Shown here piece after piece: positions 13,606 to 29,039 of a stretch of DNA of 33,083 bases. The translations under genes were made by a program, and so were the position numbers. Where the stretch lies: the IMG/VR virus record IMGVR_UViG_3300042350_000115, positions 1-33,083 of that record, one strand, 5' to 3'. How positions within the stretch are numbered: the stretch's first letter is position 1; every line of letters starts with the position of its first letter. The notes beneath the pieces are model-generated. The model was not told the DNA's origin. It made no database searches and worked only from the letters and a program-made list of their open reading frames with translations. This stretch comes from a virus.

Positions 13606-13887
13606 TTACTCCTCTATTACAAAACAAACATCTTGCCAACTCATTTTGAGTAAGCGCTCATCATTGTGCTTGATTTCCTCAAACTTTAGGTATTCGTCTT
13701 TATAGTCTTTGTGGAATGTACCAAAAGCAATCTTGTCACCAATATTTAAACCTTCGGCATGGGCTTCTGGGCCTACTGCCATAACCGTCCCGCGGCTTTC
13801 AGCTTCTGCCGATTGGAAATAAATTGTGCTTTGGATGCGTTGTTCAGGACGCACCAGTATCTTGTCTTTAAGTGGGTGCAAGTTCAT
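13606..13887 (-). CDS. GroES-like co-chaperonin
   Basis: The 93-residue protein aligns with GroES (97). It starts with NLHPLKDKILVRP, matching the GroES N-terminal strand. A flexible stretch at residues ~15-30 corresponds to the mobile loop; its hydrophobic tip reads TIYF where E. coli GroES has GGIVL. SRGTVMAVGP and GDKIAFG match the following strands. GroES caps GroEL so that clients can fold. P22-type coat proteins are classic GroEL/ES clients, so this protein probably pairs with host GroEL to fold the phage coat, as T4 gp31 does. It overlaps the 72-residue zinc protein by ATGA. Confidence 0.87.
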   Translation of the reverse strand: MNLHPLKDKILVRPEQRIQSTIYFQSAEAESRGTVMAVGPEAHAEGLNIGDKIAFGTFHKDYKDEYLKFEEIKHNDERLLKMSWQDVCFVIEE

Positions 13888-15978: not shown

Positions 15979-16078
15979 AGTCTCCCGTAAGTTCAAGCGC
16001 TCTTGTGATGACAAAGTGGCTAAATTGCTGGCCTTCTCTGGCTCGGTCAAGAATTCTGTTTGCTTCATGGTGTGTCAT
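15842..16078 (-). CDS. small phage protein with T-R-A-L-x-L-T-G-D motif, 78 aa
   Basis: The ATG at 16078 overlaps the stop of the replication gene (ATGA). The N-terminal 35 residues (MTHHEANRILDRAREG, then FVITRALELTGDYE) follow a pattern I recognise from many small phage and prophage proteins of unknown role. The following 43 residues overlap the 63-residue frame and lack a clear pattern. Either both frames are translated, or the two conserved parts were once one protein joined by a frameshift near 15975. Confidence 0.58.
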   Translation of the reverse strand: MTHHEANRILDRAREGQQFSHFVITRALELTGDYEANGSNGMDQALQKESAGGGWRRSPILVATDPSRHCQETRPASR

Positions 16079-16854
16079 GCCTTTTTCCTCAATTCAGCCA
16101 TTTTCGCCAAAACATCAAGCGGAATAGGTACGGCCTTTTTGTCGTCAGCTTTAATCTTTTCCAATGCGGCATCAGGCTCATTCTTTGATGGAACTGTGAG
16201 CCTCACAATATCGTAAGGATTTTGTTTAGGTGCAGTAGTGCTTCTAACCCAATTGCGCCATGTCGCAAACCAATCCAGCTTGACACCCTTTTGACCAGCT
16301 TGGGAAATCCAATAATCCTTAAACTGGTCAAAGGTTTTCACCGGGCTAAGTTCTGGTCTTGTCTGTTGGCAAAACTGTTCCCATTCTTTTGTAAAACAAA
16401 AATCAGAGGCGAGGCGTGAGCCGCGCTTGTTCTTTTTCTTTTCTGTATCTGTATCTGTATCTGTATCTGTATCTGTATCTGTATCTGTATCTATAGCGTT
16501 ACTTGGGCGTTTCTGTAACGTTTCATCAACGTTACTTTCCTGTTTCTTTTTCTCTCTATGTCTTGCAACCCGCATGGTGCTTGAGTCTGAGACAAATTGA
16601 CGTTTATCCCAATTTAATAAATTCCATTGCTTATCAATAAAATTCTTGGCAATAAACAGTTGTTTAGTTTCCTCTAATTCGGCTGTGGATAACCTAAGTT
16701 GAAACGCAATTTCTGTTTCATGTAACGTTTCAAGAATTTCGCTACATCTAAGGCACAACAGCATGACATAACGTCTTTGCATTGCCTCAGAAAGCATTTG
16801 AATTTTTGGATCGTGCGCGAACTCTGAATAGAGTCTAAACCAAGGATTAGCCAT
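16075..16854 (-). CDS. replication initiation protein with winged-helix N-terminus
   Basis: The 259-residue protein starts at the ATG 16854, with GGA 8 bases upstream; the longer form needs a TTG. Residues ~1-85 look like a winged-helix domain (MANPWFRLYSEFAHDPKIQML is a common opening in phage replication proteins). A basic linker follows, then a pure (Asp-Thr)8 run at 122-137. Residues ~150-210 hold the FTKEWEQFCQQ ... FDQFKDYWISQA ... W-x-x-WRNWVRS block, the DnaT-like or lambda-O/P-like C-terminal helper domain. I infer that it binds the origin and recruits host helicase. No ATPase or primase motif is present. It is the second gene of the left early operon. Confidence 0.8.
   Translation of the reverse strand: MANPWFRLYSEFAHDPKIQMLSEAMQRRYVMLLCLRCSEILETLHETEIAFQLRLSTAELEETKQLFIAKNFIDKQWNLLNWDKRQFVSDSSTMRVARHREKKKQESNVDETLQKRPSNAIDTDTDTDTDTDTDTDTEKKKNKRGSRLASDFCFTKEWEQFCQQTRPELSPVKTFDQFKDYWISQAGQKGVKLDWFATWRNWVRSTTAPKQNPYDIVRLTVPSKNEPDAALEKIKADDKKAVPIPLDVLAKMAELRKKA
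16443..16490. repeat. hexanucleotide microsatellite, 8 copies of CTGTAT
   Basis: Eight perfect tandem copies of CTGTAT occur inside the replication gene. On the coding strand each copy encodes Asp-Thr, giving (DT)8 as a linker. Six-base slippage would change linker length without loss of frame. Confidence 0.97.
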
Positions 16855-16960: not shown

Positions 16961-17116
16961 TTACTCTACAAACCATTGTGGACGCAACAACTTTAATTGC
17001 CATATTCTTGCTTTAGGAACAAATTTCCATTGAGCAACAGAGGGCTGTTTAATCCCTAATATTCGGGCTAGTTCACTCTGTGAGCCAGCCAATGCAATAA
17101 ACTTGTGTTTGTCCAT
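16961..17116 (-). CDS. Cro-like repressor, 51 aa
   Basis: The short protein has a helix-turn-helix at residues ~13-31: QSELARILGI, KQPSVAQWK. This lies within the P22 Cro-type pattern in which an S-Q-x-x-L-A-x-x-LGI helix is followed by a Q-x-x-V-x-x-WK recognition helix. The end (ARIWQLKLLRPQWF) also resembles small Cro-like proteins. No ribosome site precedes the ATG at 17116; instead a TATAGT -10 box ends 7 bases before it, so the mRNA is probably leaderless. A palindrome matching the right-hand operator covers the -10 and the ATG, so self-repression is likely. There is no separate CI-type gene. Confidence 0.85.
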   Translation of the reverse strand: MDKHKFIALAGSQSELARILGIKQPSVAQWKFVPKARIWQLKLLRPQWFVE

Positions 17117-17130
17117 AGGCTTGACTATAC
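17113..17130. promoter_or_regulatory. putative left operator over the Cro-like gene start
   Basis: CCATAGGCTTGACTATAC matches the right-hand palindrome at 14 of 18 positions. It overlaps the minus-strand -10 box (TATAGT at 17124-17129) and the start codon of the Cro-like gene. A protein bound here would block its own promoter. Confidence 0.6.
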
Positions 17131-17150
17131 CCCCATTTGCATAAAAGCAA
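17124..17150 (-). promoter_or_regulatory. left early promoter, leaderless
   Basis: The minus-strand -10 box TATAGT (5 of 6) lies at 17124-17129, with a weak -35 TTGCTT at 17145-17150 (15-base spacer). Transcription would start within a base or two of the ATG at 17116, giving a leaderless mRNA. Confidence 0.5.
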
Positions 17151-17179
17151 CATTAGGGTAAGTCCTTACAAAATACTTG

Positions 17180-17207
17180 TTGACTTATCTATAGGCTAGG
17201 CTATAGT
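17180..17207 (+). promoter_or_regulatory. right early promoter
   Basis: TTGACT (17180-17185) and TATAGT (17202-17207) are 16 bases apart, each 5 of 6 to consensus. The promoter faces the plus-strand operon, whose first ATG is at 17252. The palindrome at 17189-17206 covers the -10 box. Confidence 0.74.
17189..17206. promoter_or_regulatory. right operator, 18-bp near-perfect palindrome
   Basis: CTATAGGCTAGGCTATAG is symmetric in 16 of 18 positions. It lies across the -10 box of the right early promoter, the place expected for a Cro-type binding site. A related copy is at 17113-17130. A further imperfect palindrome, GTAAGTCCTTAC, is at 17158-17169 between the two. Confidence 0.72.
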
Positions 17208-17251
17208 TCACCCATGCCCTGAACTTCTTGGGGTCTTTTAAGGAAATCAAA

Positions 17252-17458
17252 ATGACATACACAGAATTAACTGCAAAGTTAATTGCAATTGAAAAAGCAA
17301 CTGGTTTGTACCTTTCAGACACTTGCGTTGATCGTGAGAATGCAACAAACCCAAATTGCGATAGGTCTTTGTTTGCAGTAGCAGTAAGTGCCGCTGGCGA
17401 AAGAGCTGAGGCCGCTGGTTACGACATCAATGTTTTGGTTGGCGCTCAAATTTATTAA
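17252..17458 (+). CDS. first gene of right early operon, unknown, 68 aa
   Basis: The protein begins MTYTELTAKLIAIEKATG and has two cysteines (in DTCVD and NPNCDRS) and an Ala-rich end. The ATG at 17252 has AAGGA 7 bases upstream; an in-frame TTG at 17228 is less likely. No domain is recognised. It is the first product made after the right early promoter, a position that in phages often encodes host-takeover or regulatory peptides. Confidence 0.7.
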   Translation: MTYTELTAKLIAIEKATGLYLSDTCVDRENATNPNCDRSLFAVAVSAAGERAEAAGYDINVLVGAQIY

Positions 17459-17822: not shown

Positions 17823-18008
17823 ATGCTTGAACTACTCAAAGATTACTTCCGCTTGCCATCAGCTAAAGAAATAGCCGCCAAGGAACTGGAATCAGCCCAA
17901 CGCAAGCTGTTAGACGCTCTCAGCGCTCAAGAATATGCAAGGCGCATGGCTGACTACCACTCAGACCGAATCAAACGCCTCACGGTTTATTTAAAGGAAG
18001 AAGCATGA
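17823..18008 (+). CDS. small helical protein, 61 aa
   Basis: The protein begins MLELLKDYFRLPSAKEIAAK and is a single long charged helix (ELESAQRKLLDALSAQEYA and onward) likely to form a coiled coil. GGAGGGG lies 6 bases upstream of the ATG at 17823, and its stop overlaps the ERF start (ATGA). Small helical proteins of this form are common beside phage recombination genes. The function is unknown. Confidence 0.72.
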   Translation: MLELLKDYFRLPSAKEIAAKELESAQRKLLDALSAQEYARRMADYHSDRIKRLTVYLKEEA

Positions 18009-18571
18009 AAAACGTAGCAACAGCATTTGTCAAAGCACAAAAAGAATTTGGGCCAGCTTTAAAGACTGCCACTAACGCAGGGTTTAAAAGCAATGGCAAA
18101 CCTAGCCGTTACGCTGATTTAACCTCTTGCATTGAGGCGGTCATAACTGCGCTGAACAACAATGGCATTGCATTGATTCAAAAGCCGCATGAATGCAACG
18201 ATGGCGTAATTATCCAAACCATCTTTTTGCATGAGTCTGGTGAAATGATTGAGGGCGGTATGCTTCATGTACCAGCTTCCAAACACGATGCCCACGGTTA
18301 TGGCTCGGCTTTGACTTATGCCCGTAGATATTCTTTGATGGCCACTTGTGGCATTTCTCAAGAAGATGACGATGGCAACGCGGCAAGTGGCAAGGTTGTT
18401 CCAAGTGTTAATGAAAACACTTTACTGGATCACTTTGCGGCCATTGAAGCGTCATCAACACATGATGAATTAAAAGCCAACTTTAAAACAGCATTGGCGG
18501 CTTGCAAAGGCAATGCAGACTTGCAGTTAAAGATTATTGAAGCCAAAGACAAAGCAAAGGCAAAATTATGA
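18005..18571 (+). CDS. erf: ERF-family single-strand annealing protein
   Basis: The 188-residue protein has the ERF core: a FGPALKTATN helix near residues 15-25, SRYADLTSCIEAV, GIALIQKP, then HDAHGYGSALTYARRYSL. The RR-Y signature and GSALTYARRYSL are typical of the family. P22 Erf (204) anneals complementary single strands and recircularises the infecting genome. The C-terminal ~60 residues are less conserved and may hold a helper-binding region. It overlaps the coiled-coil gene upstream and YqaJ downstream by ATGA each. It would work with the 5' exonuclease-like YqaJ and the SSB-like protein. Confidence 0.93.
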   Translation: MKNVATAFVKAQKEFGPALKTATNAGFKSNGKPSRYADLTSCIEAVITALNNNGIALIQKPHECNDGVIIQTIFLHESGEMIEGGMLHVPASKHDAHGYGSALTYARRYSLMATCGISQEDDDGNAASGKVVPSVNENTLLDHFAAIEASSTHDELKANFKTALAACKGNADLQLKIIEAKDKAKAKL

Positions 18572-19194
18572 TTGAAATGATTGAACAACGCTCGGACGCA
18601 TGGTTTGCGGCTCGTATTGGTAAAGTCACAGCATCCCGTGTGGCTGATGTACTTGCTAAAACGCAATCAGGCTATGCCGCAAGCCGGGCTAACTACATGG
18701 CTCAGTTGGTGTGTGAGCGCCTAACGGGGCAACGTGAAGAATTCTTTATTTCTTCAGCAATGCAACATGGCACAGACACAGAACCTCTTGCCAGAGCCGC
18801 TTATGAGTCGTTTAAAGACGTTTTAGTGGATGAAGTGGGGTTTGTACCACATCCCACAATTGAAATGGCTGGTGCGTCCCCTGACGGGCTTGTGGGGGAT
18901 GATGGTTTGTTAGAAATTAAATGTCCTAATACTGCCACGCACATTGAGACTTTGCTTAGTCAAACTGTGCCAAACAAATACAACACGCAAATGCAATTTC
19001 AAATGGCTTGCACAGACCGTAGCTGGTGTGATTTTGTCAGTTTTGACAATCGCCTACCAGCAGAACTTCAATTGTTTGTTAAACGTATCCCAAGGGACAA
19101 TATGTATATCAAACTGATGGAAGATGAAATCGTCAAATTCTTAAATGAACTTGATATAAAAATTGCTCAACTTATGAAAGTCAAAAATGTCTAA
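18568..19194 (+). CDS. YqaJ-type viral recombinase exonuclease
   Basis: This 208-residue protein has the YqaJ/lambda-exonuclease pattern. An N-terminal SDAWFAARIGKVTASR segment is followed by HGTDTEPLARAAYE (E72), GASPDGLVG (D106) and LLEIKCP (E116-x-K118), then a MQFQMACTDRSWCDFV helix. These make up the PD-(D/E)XK site. The enzyme resects double-strand ends to single strands for ERF to anneal. All key residues are present and the length is normal. It is overlapped by ERF upstream (ATGA) and by the SSB-like gene downstream (8 bases). Confidence 0.93.
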   Translation: MIEMIEQRSDAWFAARIGKVTASRVADVLAKTQSGYAASRANYMAQLVCERLTGQREEFFISSAMQHGTDTEPLARAAYESFKDVLVDEVGFVPHPTIEMAGASPDGLVGDDGLLEIKCPNTATHIETLLSQTVPNKYNTQMQFQMACTDRSWCDFVSFDNRLPAELQLFVKRIPRDNMYIKLMEDEIVKFLNELDIKIAQLMKVKNV

Positions 19195-22659: not shown

Positions 22660-24906
22660 TTAATCCTTAGTTAAGCCACCATAAGGATTTACAGCTTCTT
22701 TTGCAAATCCTTCTTTGTTTAGTTTACCCATCCATGATCTACCCAAAGACATAGCTGGAATGGATGCACCACCTGTCATAGTGGCTAATTTTGTTTCAAC
22801 GCCTGTTGCCAAACCTTGTTTAGCCAAATCACCCAACATTGAACTAAAAGAATTTGAATAGTTAAATGTGCCTGTTTTTGGCATTCCAACTTTACTAGAA
22901 AGCGCAGTCAATTCCATTAAATCTTTGAAACCTTCAGGGCCAAGAGATTCTTGCAAACGTCCTCTGTTGTCTTGAATGTAATTCGCCAATGTTTTTGGAT
23001 TTAAGTCAGGTATGTCAGTAGCCAAACCCGCTTTACGCATAACATTTCGTAACTCACCCGCTGTAATTGCTTGGATAGCTTGTGGATCGTCTGCCAATTC
23101 AGCTTTCATTCTGCGAATAGACTCTGGTGTTCCTTTGGTGACAAACTTGTCATGGAATTTTTCAGCGTTAAGACTTTCGCCTTGTGCTGTCAAATCATCT
23201 AATGTGCTTGCTTCTTTTACAGCGGATTTGTAAGCGGGATTTGACTTAATAACATCCATGCGCTGTTTGTTTAAAGAACGTGCTTTGTCAGCCAATGTTT
23301 TAAGTTGAATAGCTTGTGCGCTTCCAGTTTCTTCACCAAAAATAGGTAACTTTTCCAATTGGTCACGAACAATGTAAGCCGCTTGCCTTGCATTGCCATT
23401 AGAACTTGACCGCATTTCATTAGCTAAGTTGGTGCGTAAAGCCTCATAAGCCTCAAATGTTGGATTGCTGTAAAAGTCTGTTAAATCACTTGCAATTGAA
23501 CCTGACAAATGGTTTGTTTTAAGATTTTTGGACAGTTCAGTTTTGATGCCTTTATCAAGTGCTTGAATGTCAATAGGAAACTGACCGCCATTTGCATCTT
23601 CCAAAGCCTTGTAAGCATCAGAAATAGCTGATTTTCTAATTTGATCTTTAGCTGACAAAGCATTTATTTGAATTTGACCAATAGAACTTGGGTCAATTTC
23701 AAAAACATCAGGCGCATTACGTCTAATTGAATTTTCAAATGCAGATTTAAATTGTTTTGGTTGTTCATTAAAATGATTGCCCAAAATTTCAGTTTCGCCA
23801 CGCTTATTCCATTCTTGAGAATAAAGGCTTGTGTCGCCTGTGCGTTGACCACGGCTTAGATTGACACCATGTTTTTCTTCAAGACTTCTGGTTTCCAAAG
23901 CTGGCAAATCAACAGCCCTTGGATTCTTTGATTGAACGTAAGTTTGCAATTCAGGCGATGATTGAGCAATAGCCGCATCAATATTGCCACGCAAGACGTT
24001 TTCTGGCATAGCCGCGGCCGCACCAACGCTTTGTTTGCCCCCCTTGGCTTGAAACTGTTGTTCAAGCTGACTAGGTGCTGTAGAACGAATTTCATTGCCC
24101 CATTGACTTAAAGTCTCAGCGCCTTTAACTAAAGGTTTAGCTACGGTAGCCAAAGGTTTAGCCAATACCGCTGGTGCGGCAATTGTTGCCGTTCCCATCA
24201 TGTTTTGCACATCAGGAAGTGGTAAGCCTGTTTTCTGGGCAATCCACTCTGCGCCTTTATTGACGTTTTCACCAATAAAGTTCATCAGTCTTTGTGAAGC
24301 CTCACCCTGATAAGCGGGGCTTTGCGTAACCCCAAATGTCTTACCAAACGGTTTTTCTAATGCACCTGTAACAGCTTGACCATATTGCTGTGCTTTTTCG
24401 GGCGTAGTAAACGGGCGGGAAGCGGCTTGAACTACTTGACCAGCCATAGGCAAAATACCGCCAACAGTAGTGTCAGCTAATGACGCAACACTAGCGCCAA
24501 AGTCACGCCCCATTTGGCCATACATTTCACGCGATCTTTGCAGATTGATAATTGCTTGATCGGTCTTGTTTTTTGGCACTGGTTTATCAGTTTTAGAACC
24601 TTTAAACGCATCTTGAACTGCCGCGCCAATTGCATCTACGCTAAAGTCATCACTTGGCGTTTGTGCAGTAGTAGGCGCACCGCCTTTTAACTTCATTTCT
24701 CGCTGAAGTGCCTCTAAATTACGGGCAGAAGCGGCATTACCACCCGCGGCAAGTTTGCTTTGTTTTTCGTATTCGTCTTGCAATACTCGTAAAGCCTCTT
24801 GGTCACGGGAGGATTGAGTTCTTGCGGGGGGCGCTGATTTGCGGCCAAACGCAGAGTTAACTGCATTGTTGACCGAATCTAAATCAAAATCATCAACAAC
24901 AGCCAT
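22660..24906 (-). CDS. large ejection-type virion protein, 748 aa
   Basis: The protein begins with two copies of a DDF-(D/S)-(L/V)-D-x-(V/I)-x-x-AV-x-x-AF motif (residues ~5-21 and ~85-102) separated by a disordered, basic stretch. Around residues 130-250 are Gly/Ala-rich helices with VLAKPLATVAKPLVKG, likely membrane-active. The rest is helical and charged. It is the last of three large genes between gp10 and the fibre, the place of P22 gp16-like ejection proteins. No lytic transglycosylase or peptidase signature is seen. It is tied to the 535-residue gene by a shared base at 24906. The role in DNA delivery is inferred. Confidence 0.68.
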   Translation of the reverse strand: MAVVDDFDLDSVNNAVNSAFGRKSAPPARTQSSRDQEALRVLQDEYEKQSKLAAGGNAASARNLEALQREMKLKGGAPTTAQTPSDDFSVDAIGAAVQDAFKGSKTDKPVPKNKTDQAIINLQRSREMYGQMGRDFGASVASLADTTVGGILPMAGQVVQAASRPFTTPEKAQQYGQAVTGALEKPFGKTFGVTQSPAYQGEASQRLMNFIGENVNKGAEWIAQKTGLPLPDVQNMMGTATIAAPAVLAKPLATVAKPLVKGAETLSQWGNEIRSTAPSQLEQQFQAKGGKQSVGAAAAMPENVLRGNIDAAIAQSSPELQTYVQSKNPRAVDLPALETRSLEEKHGVNLSRGQRTGDTSLYSQEWNKRGETEILGNHFNEQPKQFKSAFENSIRRNAPDVFEIDPSSIGQIQINALSAKDQIRKSAISDAYKALEDANGGQFPIDIQALDKGIKTELSKNLKTNHLSGSIASDLTDFYSNPTFEAYEALRTNLANEMRSSSNGNARQAAYIVRDQLEKLPIFGEETGSAQAIQLKTLADKARSLNKQRMDVIKSNPAYKSAVKEASTLDDLTAQGESLNAEKFHDKFVTKGTPESIRRMKAELADDPQAIQAITAGELRNVMRKAGLATDIPDLNPKTLANYIQDNRGRLQESLGPEGFKDLMELTALSSKVGMPKTGTFNYSNSFSSMLGDLAKQGLATGVETKLATMTGGASIPAMSLGRSWMGKLNKEGFAKEAVNPYGGLTKD

Positions 24907-26513
24907 TATTGCCCCTTAACAAGCGTACTCATAAACTTGATTTTAGTCAGCAGATTTTTGTAACCCGTAGAATCAGGGCCACCAACGGCATTGACAACTT
25001 CTTTCATGCCATCTTTGTCGTTGTTTCTCATTGCATCATAAAGACGAATGGCGTTTACGTCAGCAATTTGACTCCATTTATTTTGGAAGTCTCTAGCCGC
25101 AAACGGGTCTTTAGTTTTATTAAATTCGTTTTCAACGCCTTGGTTAAACAAACTTGTTGCAGTTGACAAAGCACGATTGACACGGGCGGTTTGTTTGATA
25201 GCTGGCGCTGTCCATTCAACTGTTCCAGCAATCTGACCAGCAATTTGGTTAGCCGCATCAGTACCACTCAAACCAGAGGATTTTGACAATTCCGCTGTTT
25301 GAAGCGCCATGTAATGACCAAGCTGTTGCAAGTTGGTTGCGTTGTCACCACCAAAAGGCAAAGCGGCATAACCACCAGTAAGGTTAGCAATAGCGCCAGC
25401 ACCCTTACCAGAAATCACATCATCAGCAATTTTAATAATTTGGTTGCTGTTAAATTGCTGGTTAGGCACATTAGCGGCCGCGGCCATTGATCTTGTGCGA
25501 ATAGCTTGAGCATCGCGCAATGTGTCTGCGTTCTCACCGGGGCGCATCCTTACAGGCGCATTAGAGGGCATTGCAGGGGGTTGTGGTGCGTTTACTTGCG
25601 GTTGTGGCATACCACCACCCTGCTGTGGCATTACGTTTTGCTGTGGCGCTCTTGGTGCGCCTGAAACACCAGCGGGAATTGTGACCTCACCTAATAGTTG
25701 TCCAGTTTTGGAATATTCATAAGCCGTTGGATTATTGTTTTGGTCAGTTCTGCCAGTTGGCACAAACTGAGTGCCGGGGGCCATAGTCAAAGGCTCTGCC
25801 GCGCCCGTCATGCGAATGTTAGGCGCTTGTCCTGCAATTCCTTGAGGCGTTGTAATGGTTTCTTTTAATTCACTTCCTGTGCCTGTCAAACTAGCTTTAG
25901 GGGCAAACTCAGCACGTTGCTGTGGAATAGACAACAAAGATGCAGACTCAGCAAGCAAGTCTTTTGTAATAGCCGGGCCGGGCTGTGCTTTGTTAAGCAA
26001 GTCAATTCTTGAATTGATCATGCGTTCTAAAGACGGGTTGTCAGGATTATTTTGAATCAATCCTTGATAGGCTTTAATAATTTGCTTTGGATCGTTAACA
26101 CCCATTAAACCTAGTGAATGATCAACATTGCCAATAATGTTTCGTTCAGTTTGCGTCAATGCTTGTTTTGCACTAGCCGCTTCTGTTTGACTCTTGTGCA
26201 ATCCACTTAATGAAGTAATCACATCAGAACCTGTCAACGGGGCAATTTTTGGAATAGCCGCGTTAATCTTGTCCATGTCAATACGGCCATTGGTCTGCCA
26301 GTTTGCAGGGTTGCTAGTGAACTCTTGCAATTTTAAACGCTCATCATTTTTCTGACGCAACACTTGGTTTTCAATCTGCGCTTTTTCTAAAGCCAAAGGA
26401 TTTAATTGCTGTGTTTGCTGGAAGTTTTGAATTCCAGAAGCCATGTTGATCATGTCCCCAAGGGTTTGACCTTGAGGCTTTGCGTAATTTACATTCATTG
26501 AAAAGTCAGCCAT
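24906..26513 (-). CDS. internal virion protein, 535 aa
   Basis: The protein is Gln/Asn/Pro-rich. It opens with MADFSMNVNYAKPQGQTLGD and a helix rich in Gln (MASGIQNFQQTQQLN) that is a common opening in podoviral internal proteins. A Pro/Gln-rich disordered stretch lies at about residues 280-325. The C-terminal ~190 residues are helical, with NSNQIIKIADDVI and a WTAPAIKQTARVN region. It is the middle gene of three, matching P22 gp20 in place. It probably leaves the particle with DNA. No enzyme motif is found. Confidence 0.66.
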   Translation of the reverse strand: MADFSMNVNYAKPQGQTLGDMINMASGIQNFQQTQQLNPLALEKAQIENQVLRQKNDERLKLQEFTSNPANWQTNGRIDMDKINAAIPKIAPLTGSDVITSLSGLHKSQTEAASAKQALTQTERNIIGNVDHSLGLMGVNDPKQIIKAYQGLIQNNPDNPSLERMINSRIDLLNKAQPGPAITKDLLAESASLLSIPQQRAEFAPKASLTGTGSELKETITTPQGIAGQAPNIRMTGAAEPLTMAPGTQFVPTGRTDQNNNPTAYEYSKTGQLLGEVTIPAGVSGAPRAPQQNVMPQQGGGMPQPQVNAPQPPAMPSNAPVRMRPGENADTLRDAQAIRTRSMAAAANVPNQQFNSNQIIKIADDVISGKGAGAIANLTGGYAALPFGGDNATNLQQLGHYMALQTAELSKSSGLSGTDAANQIAGQIAGTVEWTAPAIKQTARVNRALSTATSLFNQGVENEFNKTKDPFAARDFQNKWSQIADVNAIRLYDAMRNNDKDGMKEVVNAVGGPDSTGYKNLLTKIKFMSTLVKGQ

Positions 26514-26522
26514 GATTTATCC

Positions 26523-29039
26523 TTATGTTGCTTTAAGAATAGTGCCAAGCAAAGCGGTATTGCCAAGATTACTTAAAGCCGTTGCCGTGTTAGCGCCACT
26601 TGCTGAAGCGTTACCAGCCAATGCACTTGCTAAACCAGTTGCAAGGTTAGCTGAATTTGCGCCATAAGTACCAGCCGCATTAATACCTTGACCAGCATTA
26701 GTAGTAAGATTTCCACCATAAGTATTGGAAGCGCCTGTTAAGTTGCTTCCATACTGGTTGTAAGCGCCTTGCATTGTGTTTGCATTGTTAACCACATTGC
26801 CAGCGTAATTTGTTGAACCAGTAGTTAAATTACCACCATATTGGTTGTAAGCATTTTGCATTTGGTTAGCATTACCAAGCATATTGCCAGAATAAGTATT
26901 AGAACCGCTTGTAAGGTTACTTCCATACTGATTGTATGCACCTTGCATTTGACCAAGGTTAGATGACAACACATTGTTCAAGTTATTGACAACGCCTGAT
27001 GTGTTAGTGCCGTAAGCAGTACCAGCGCCCAAAAGATTGCCTGTGTTGGTTGTAAGGTTGCCGCCAAGAGCAGATGACAAACCACCCATGTTGGAACTGT
27101 AAGCATTGCCAAGACCAGCCAATTGACCCGCAGAAGTTGAGCCAATGCCAGCCATGCCAGCTAATGTGTTGTAAATGTTATTACGTTGACCTTGAAAATT
27201 GTTAAAAGCATTTTGATATGCACCCGCGGCATAATTTTGCGTGTAATCTTGCAAGCCTCTTAAAGCATTGCCGCCCAAGCTACCACCGCCCATGTTGGCG
27301 GCACGTTGGTTTGCCATTTGACCTTGTTGCAGTTGAAATGCATAGTTAGGCGCTAATTGCTCATTTAAATCAGCCGCACCAAACTGACGGGTCAAATAAC
27401 CTTGATTGTTAATTAAACCTGTAGAACCAGCCCTGCCAACATCTTGATAAGGCTGTTGAAACCCAACTTGTTGGTTATATACATCACCCATTTTTCCAAG
27501 GGTTGCGTTGTAATTAGCATTTAAACCAGCCGCATTTGCCGCGGCTTGGTCTTTTTGACCTTGGTAAGTGCTACCCAACAAACCTAATTGTGTCTGAGCA
27601 TTTGCGTTTATGTTTTGATTAGCTAAGTTATATGCACTAGCTTGAGCATTTATGGTGTTGTTTAAATTAGTGTTTAAGTTTTGATAATTGTTGGCTAAAT
27701 TTGTACCAGTTTGGTTATAAACACCCGCTTGTGCATTTAACGTGTTATTTAAATTAGTATTTAAATTTGCATAATTGTTAGCTAAGTTTGTGCCAGTTGT
27801 GTTGTAAACGCCAGCTTGTGCATTTAACGCATTGTTTAAATTTGTGTTTAAGTTTTGGTAGTTATTACCTAAAGCTGTTGTGTTAGCTAAATTTAAGTTT
27901 TGAGCATTGTTGTAAGCGTTATTTAAAGCTGTGTTTGCAGTTGCACCGCCTTGAACAATTGCATCTCTTGCGTTGCTAATGCCTGATTGATTTGCAATAG
28001 AACCAAGACCAGTACCAAGAGCATTTAAAGCCAAACCTTGACCTAAAGTAGTTCCTAAAGCAGAAGTGGCGGCCGCGCCCGTACCCGCATTTAATAATGA
28101 ACCACCAGCACCACCTAAAGCACCCAATGCTGTACCAGTTAAGCCTGTTGCAGTACCAGCTAACGTAGAACCTAATGCCGCATTACCAAGTAAAGAATTA
28201 GTAGCGGCCATACCGCCAACGCCAGCGCCTACGCCAGTACCTAAGCCGCCAAGACCAGCCGCGCCAGTTGCACCGCCTAAACCGCCAGCGCCTGCGGCAG
28301 TCAATCCAGAACCTAAAGCGGCTTCACCACCCAAGGCACTCATTGCGCCACCGAGTCCACCCGCACCAGTTCCAGCCGCAGTTAATCCTGTGCCAGCACC
28401 CATTCCAGCAACAGCCGTTTCAGCGCCTAATGTGCCTAAAGAACCAAGAGCAGATGCACCTTCTAAAGCGGTTGCACCACCAGCGCCAACAGACCCTAAT
28501 GTTGCACCAGCGGGTGCGCCACTTAGCAAACCCTCAGTTACACCGGGGATGCCAAATGCCGCGGCCGCAAGTGCTAAACCACCTATGATGGCTTTCTTGT
28601 CGCTTGTGTCTTTACTCCATGAGGAAATAATAGGCTTGCCATCGGCATCCTTTTTAAGTTCATAAATTGTGCCACCACCGCCCGTGTAAGTAGAACCAAA
28701 ACGCCTGTTTGTAGTTGAAGCATCAGCTTGGTTTAAGTCTGTTACGCCTTCATTCAAAAGATGGCGGGACATATCCAAAATAACTTGTTCGGCCGCTGAT
28801 GGGGGATGGCCTAATAACTTTGTAGCTTCATCGTAGTTAAAACCTACGCTTTCACCCTTAGTGCTAAACACACCGCCTTTAATGGCATTTGCGTCAATTG
28901 AACCCGCCACTTGTTTTGACAAATTTAAAAGCGCATCACGGTCATAAGTCTTGCCTTGGTAATCAGTTACTTTAGTCATATCCGCATTACCAGCGTTAGC
29001 GACAAAATTGCCAACAAGTGAATTTATTAGGTTGTCCAT
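26523..29039 (-). CDS. large repetitive ejection-type protein, 838 aa
   Basis: The protein has four parts. Residues 1-150 are an ordinary folded domain (TYDRDALLNLSKQVAGS; LLGHPPSAAEQVILDMSRHLL). Residues ~150-345 are a Gly/Ala/Leu run of about 190 residues, likely membrane-inserting. Residues 388-471 are three 29-residue repeats with TNLANNY-x-NLNTNLNN. Then PYQDVGRAGSTGL and NYAFQLQQGQMANQRAANM (about residues 530-575) form a conserved segment I recognise from podophage DNA-transfer proteins. Residues 695-781 are three more 29-residue repeats with NQYG. Asn and Gly dominate. The order fits P22 gp7/gp14-type genes. The function is inferred from place and from the conserved segment. Confidence 0.7.
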   Translation of the reverse strand: MDNLINSLVGNFVANAGNADMTKVTDYQGKTYDRDALLNLSKQVAGSIDANAIKGGVFSTKGESVGFNYDEATKLLGHPPSAAEQVILDMSRHLLNEGVTDLNQADASTTNRRFGSTYTGGGGTIYELKKDADGKPIISSWSKDTSDKKAIIGGLALAAAAFGIPGVTEGLLSGAPAGATLGSVGAGGATALEGASALGSLGTLGAETAVAGMGAGTGLTAAGTGAGGLGGAMSALGGEAALGSGLTAAGAGGLGGATGAAGLGGLGTGVGAGVGGMAATNSLLGNAALGSTLAGTATGLTGTALGALGGAGGSLLNAGTGAAATSALGTTLGQGLALNALGTGLGSIANQSGISNARDAIVQGGATANTALNNAYNNAQNLNLANTTALGNNYQNLNTNLNNALNAQAGVYNTTGTNLANNYANLNTNLNNTLNAQAGVYNQTGTNLANNYQNLNTNLNNTINAQASAYNLANQNINANAQTQLGLLGSTYQGQKDQAAANAAGLNANYNATLGKMGDVYNQQVGFQQPYQDVGRAGSTGLINNQGYLTRQFGAADLNEQLAPNYAFQLQQGQMANQRAANMGGGSLGGNALRGLQDYTQNYAAGAYQNAFNNFQGQRNNIYNTLAGMAGIGSTSAGQLAGLGNAYSSNMGGLSSALGGNLTTNTGNLLGAGTAYGTNTSGVVNNLNNVLSSNLGQMQGAYNQYGSNLTSGSNTYSGNMLGNANQMQNAYNQYGGNLTTGSTNYAGNVVNNANTMQGAYNQYGSNLTGASNTYGGNLTTNAGQGINAAGTYGANSANLATGLASALAGNASASGANTATALSNLGNTALLGTILKAT
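26697..26957. repeat. three 87-bp repeats coding NQYG units
   Basis: Within the 838-residue gene, three imperfect 87-bp units encode 29-residue repeats around MQ-x-AYNQYG-x-NLT. The period equals that of the other array (27627-27878), although the sequence differs. Confidence 0.85.
27627..27878. repeat. three 87-bp repeats coding NLNTNLNN units
   Basis: Three imperfect 87-bp units (the last cut short) encode residues 388-471, with the core NNY-x-NLNTNLNN-x-x-NAQA. Asn is the main residue. Confidence 0.86.

Follow-up and report, generated by a model that had tools for sequence, protein, structure and literature searches.

A single 51-residue Cro protein probably acts as a feedback limiter on both early operons of the phage genome analyzed here, with a leaderless cro message and without a lysogenic state. 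On a broader scale, we lean slightly towards the view that a widespread freshwater phage group has replaced the CI/Cro switch with one small Cro, that the left operator half-site in members with Gln at position 2 of the recognition helix (Gln-type) doubles as the -10/start region and start codon of the leaderless gene, and that specificity has diversified into at least 20 recognition-helix classes. Computation shows the family and fold of the protein, helix-coupled operator pairs and a conserved spacing between -10 box and ATG, and finds no member of the known families of CI and integrase.

The phage genome and its early region

The window, i.e. the whole stretch of 33,083 bases analyzed, constitutes one virus record (IMGVR_UViG_3300042350_000115) and is a phage genome of freshwater type. 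Since an exact repeat of 127 bp is found at both ends, it very probably represents a complete, circularly assembled genome. The gene content is P22-like, with genes for portal, terminase, scaffold, major head protein, Hc3 head closure, tail fibre and endolysin, and the window additionally encodes NinB, Erf and YqaJ. The features of the early region are listed in Table 1. A DNA similarity search with this region against phage records gave no match, and neither did an Rfam search of the window at gathering score; sub-threshold weak Rfam matches near 17234-17354 were taken as chance. Other observations include a run of tandem TCTGTA hexamers at about 16442-16492, within the DnaD-like replication gene, weak similarity at 13606-13887 on the minus strand to a family of phage co-chaperonins resembling GroES (phrog_3188, E=3.2e-6), and proteins of 748, 535 and 838 aa at 22660-29039 (minus strand), all without a PHROGs match at E<=0.001.

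Table 1. Features of the early region, in window coordinates
Feature	Position	Strand	Basis or remark
DnaD-like helicase loader	16075..16854	-	phrog_10469 E=5.1e-18; next leftward gene after cro
cro-like gene, 51 aa, P22-type Cro repressor	16961..17116	-	first gene of leftward early operon
Left operator (candidate), GTATAGTCAAGCCTATGG	17113..17130	-	covers leftward -10 and cro start codon; 14/18 to right operator; equivalents in relatives
Start codon (ATG) of cro, its A being the predicted transcription start	17114..17116	-	inferred from the distance to the -10 (7 nt) and from relatives, whose cro starts have no SD
Leftward -10 box TATAGT	17124..17129	-	sequence; no recognisable -35
Conserved block TAAGGACTTACCCTAATGTTGC between promoters	17147..17168	-	sequence conservation in relatives
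Rightward early promoter TTGACT-16-TATAGT	17180..17207	+	sequence; equivalents in relatives
Right operator (candidate), CTATAGGCTAGGCTATAG	17189..17206	+	covers rightward -10; palindrome 16/18; in relatives, tracks residue 2 of the Cro helix
Hairpin GCCCTGAACTTCTTGGGGT near predicted 5' end of rightward message	17216..17234	+	present in 96/106 relatives, stems changed
First rightward gene, 68 aa, no assigned function	17252..17458	+	SD = AAGGA
Erf-type single-strand annealing protein	18005..18571	+	PF04404 E=6.4e-17
YqaJ-type exonuclease	18568..19194	+	PF09588 E=2.2e-28

The regulator is a P22-type Cro protein

Family profile, sequence and fold all identify the 51-residue protein as a P22-type Cro. 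It matches the Pfam family P22_Cro (PF14549) with 35.8 bits (E=6.9e-9), above the gathering cut-off of 30.2, and a profile built from 49 relatives matches P22 Cro (1RZS) at E=2.7e-9 and the Cro of Xfaso 1 at 2.5e-6. The score with the YdaS profile (PF15943) is borderline, 30.1 against a cut-off of 30 bits, and the alignment covers its first half only. The AlphaFold model (pLDDT 91.7) has five helices in the all-helical Cro fold, and its best match in the PDB is again P22 Cro 1RZS (TM 0.78, rmsd 1.0), at a weak Foldseek E-value (0.049) of the kind expected at 51 residues. The next structural matches are other all-helical Cro proteins, including N15 Cro with operator DNA. Among cultured and deposited phages, searching with the protein turned up distant Cro relatives only.

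Relatives are encoded by 375 stretches in viral contigs. The best 80 of these 375 were kept and further loci were added by searching with the YqaJ protein, for a total of 105 nonredundant cro starts (window included), which are interrelated and hence do not represent 105 independent events.

The cro message is probably leaderless

In the window the cro ATG is preceded by TATAGT-CAAGCCT, which confirms the observation of the initial annotation that the leftward -10 box ends seven bases 5' of the start codon. A -10-like hexamer ending 5-7 bases 5' of the ATG was found in 105 out of 105 loci, compared to a mean of 27 and a maximum of 38 in shuffled sequences, and hexamers with at least 5/6 matches in 86 (8.5 in shuffles). 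The spacing is kept in all 24 sequences with less than 80% protein identity. At cro, anti-SD pairing is close to nil (median duplex -0.1 kcal/mol, with values below -6 in only two of the 105 loci), and at the first rightward gene it is normal (median -5.8). The claim that cro has no ribosome site thus holds for nearly all relatives, but needs qualification in the window itself, where an unshared GGGGG run at -18 to -14 from the ATG gives a duplex of -9.8 kcal/mol. This run is poorly placed for a ribosome site, as it lies upstream of the -10 box and too far from the ATG, and it is not conserved. Taken together, the conserved -10/ATG spacing and near-nil SD pairing make a leaderless cro mRNA, as the initial annotation had proposed, a well supported prediction.

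Alternatively, transcription of cro could start at a promoter further upstream and give the message a 5' leader, with the -10-like box serving as an operator half-site only. The leftward promoter does lack a recognisable -35 box (matches were at chance level), and two more distant relatives outside the clade, PdC23 and MW202462, have apparent cro leaders with SD sites. On the other hand, the box keeps its spacing of 5-7 nt although the operators differ in sequence and position, no other conserved -10-like position was found upstream of cro in the 105 loci, and cro starts lack SD sites, so we regard a leader as unlikely. The apparent leaders in PdC23 and MW202462 make the leaderless form look specific to the present phage group. 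As its -35 box is not recognisable, the leftward promoter may need an activator. An extended -10 (TGn) is enriched at this promoter (41/105 loci) and absent in the window.

Putative operator pairs follow the recognition helix

The initial annotation described two palindromes sharing 14 of 18 bases over the -10 boxes of the divergent early promoters, the left one including the ATG. Their positions are as described, and 14/18 bases are indeed identical between GTATAGTCAAGCCTATGG (17113-17130) and CTATAGCCTAGCCTATAG (17189-17206, minus strand). The right site is palindromic at 16/18 positions, a level of at least 16 being reached in about 2.6% of shuffles of the region, but the left site reaches 10/18, i.e. 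chance level, and palindromy alone was consequently insufficient for it. The left site is supported instead by its similarity to the right one and by the relatives. In a shifted register the two agree at 15/18 positions, with 15 or more in 5 out of 1500 dinucleotide shuffles, and no comparable match was found in a search of the rest of the genome. From the window alone, the operator pair is thus suggestive and of modest significance.

The decisive argument is that putative operator pairs change in step with the Cro recognition helix across the relatives. Within a locus, the best match over 18 bases of the left with the right promoter region averages 13.62; pairs taken from different helix types average 11.73, and shuffled sequences 11.42. 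When one locus was taken per recognition-helix class (23 classes), the observed value was 13.84, while permuted pairings had a mean of 12.07 and a maximum, out of 2400, of 13.09. The right -10 box also varies with residue 2 of the helix, Arg occurring with TACAAT and Gln with TATAAT or TATAGT. Among the called promoters, C stands at the third position of this box in 38 of the 49 where the residue is Arg and in two of the 41 where it is Gln, counts that ignore descent; by helix class, C is in the majority in about seven of 13 Arg classes and in none of 10 Gln classes. In most Gln-type loci the putative left operator covers both the -10 box and the start codon; in many Arg-type loci it ends just at the -10. 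This coupling between site and recognition helix supports binding of a Cro dimer to palindromic operators, and the relatives back the proposal that each of the divergent early promoters is overlain by a Cro operator. That the two sites only share a chance promoter-like similarity, the protein acting elsewhere, would fit the modest match in the window (5/1500 shuffles reach it) and the poor left palindrome; given that left and right sites are coupled within loci over 23 helix classes, and that the right -10 is associated with Arg or Gln, we consider this very improbable.

Further sites appear in five loci (L091, L092, L093, L094 and L082), which have a second rightward promoter cassette of the same layout, 0.3-1.4 kb from the first, with a further operator-like site and hairpin. 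This suggests a third promoter under Cro control in some relatives. The hairpin in the window is without an Rfam match, and its stems differ among relatives (e.g. GCCC/GGGT and CCG/CGG). A short T-run comes after it, then the SD; it is possibly a stability hairpin or an attenuator.

In many relatives the stretch separating the two early promoters also contains a partly palindromic block of 22 bases, TAGGGACTTWCCCTAATGTTGC, or its first 15 bases. It recurs elsewhere, also in other, larger phage contigs; besides the window, the block was noted in L018, L082, L092, L093, L155, L047, L179, L183 and L185. A role as third operator was rejected, as the block does not track the Cro helix and occurs away from cro, and it was not found as a host chromosomal regulator site in the one Comamonadaceae MAG searched.

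No CI-type repressor or integration genes were found

Absence was assessed in 25 records of 30-39 kb, namely the window and 24 large related records, with completeness checked for the window only. S24, tyrosine integrase and serine recombinase (PF00717, PF00589 and PF00239) gave no match in any of them, while controls matched. HTH_3 gave sub-threshold matches only, the one in the window being Cro itself, and no second gene above cut-off. The initial annotation was thus right in reporting no CI gene, to the extent that family searches find CI-type repressors. Its further claim, that the Cro-like protein is the only repressor, agrees with these searches but rests on them, and an unrecognised repressor is possible among the many genes without a family match or known function. 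Calling the region a switch was too strong, as no CI and no integrase were found and hence no second state is evident. As to the hallmarks of a lambda-type bistable switch, the sequence and the relatives point to operators that overlap the early promoters on both sides; neither a CI gene divergent from cro nor a tyrosine integrase or serine recombinase was found.

A remnant or disguised lysis-lysogeny switch, in which an unrecognised second repressor from some unassigned gene competes with Cro, would draw on the several early genes without family match and on the conserved non-operator block between the promoters. However, none of the 25 records has a second HTH_3 above cut-off, an S24 domain, an integrase or a serine recombinase, and the block occurs away from cro too, in other phages, which leaves such a switch improbable. 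A negative-feedback limiter of early transcription is the likelier function, given that no CI and no integrase were found and no second state is evident.

Proposed circuit and its significance

The region would correspond to a stripped-down lambdoid immunity region, with PL and PR back to back and the cI segment absent. The leftward operon (cro, replication, ninB) would be PR-like, and the rightward one (Erf and YqaJ recombination) PL-like. Upon infection both divergent early promoters would fire. The mRNA of cro, the first leftward gene, most likely begins at the A of its own ATG and would therefore be translated without a Shine-Dalgarno site. Binding of Cro dimers to the two operators, each of which covers a -10 box, would then silence both promoters, so that negative feedback would limit early transcription, and a lysogenic state would be absent. 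Transcript start, binding, repression and a lytic lifestyle are what we infer here.

If this is true, one short stretch would serve repression, transcription start and translation start in Gln-type members. The genome of the window and at least 100 relatives appear to control their two early operons through one very small Cro-type repressor and to lack a lysogeny repressor. Such a minimal circuit for early control, consisting of one regulator and two sites, is apparently conserved in many environmental phages. They would also provide a natural library of Cro-operator pairs, with more than 20 recognition-helix types, for testing how DNA is read. Whether there is a Cro recognition code is an old question, which Hall, Lefevre and Cordes (2005, as cited in PMC4488713) posed for a small number of lambdoid phages. 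Such a code becomes testable at larger scale, and regulated leaderless translation in a very small system.

Comparison with known systems

New, as a variation on known systems, is the combination of a CI-less layout, a probably leaderless cro and helix-linked operator diversity, although earlier reports may have been missed, subscription journals being poorly covered. P22 Cro (PDB 1RZS; Pfam P22_Cro) has the same family and fold, with residues 1-43 aligned, but the Cro of the window is 10 residues shorter and a c2/cI-type partner gene was not found in the window. In lambda, PL and PR drive divergent early operons (recombination vs cro-replication-nin) with operators over the promoters. The divergent layout is alike in the window, except that the cI gene between the promoters is missing, and while the leaderless message of lambda is cI, the one predicted here is cro. 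Among cultured phages, Pantoea phage PdC23 (OL396571) encodes a Cro-like regulator upstream of replication genes, with an Erf operon running in the opposite direction. As in the window, CI is not annotated in the region examined, but its cro has an apparent leader with GGAGG.

A leaderless cro is not unprecedented, as the cro mRNA of PY54 starts at the AUG by RACE, and PY54 Cro has been suggested to be a member of the all-alpha group (PMC4488713). PY54 differs from the window in being temperate, with a cI, and in having a Cro that binds a single operator, apparently without self-repression (PMC4488713). Lastly, the paaR2/ydaS region of CP-933P also combines divergent small regulators with a leaderless regulator message (PMC8630535), but there the leaderless gene is the CI-side regulator, whereas the one predicted for the window is on the Cro side.
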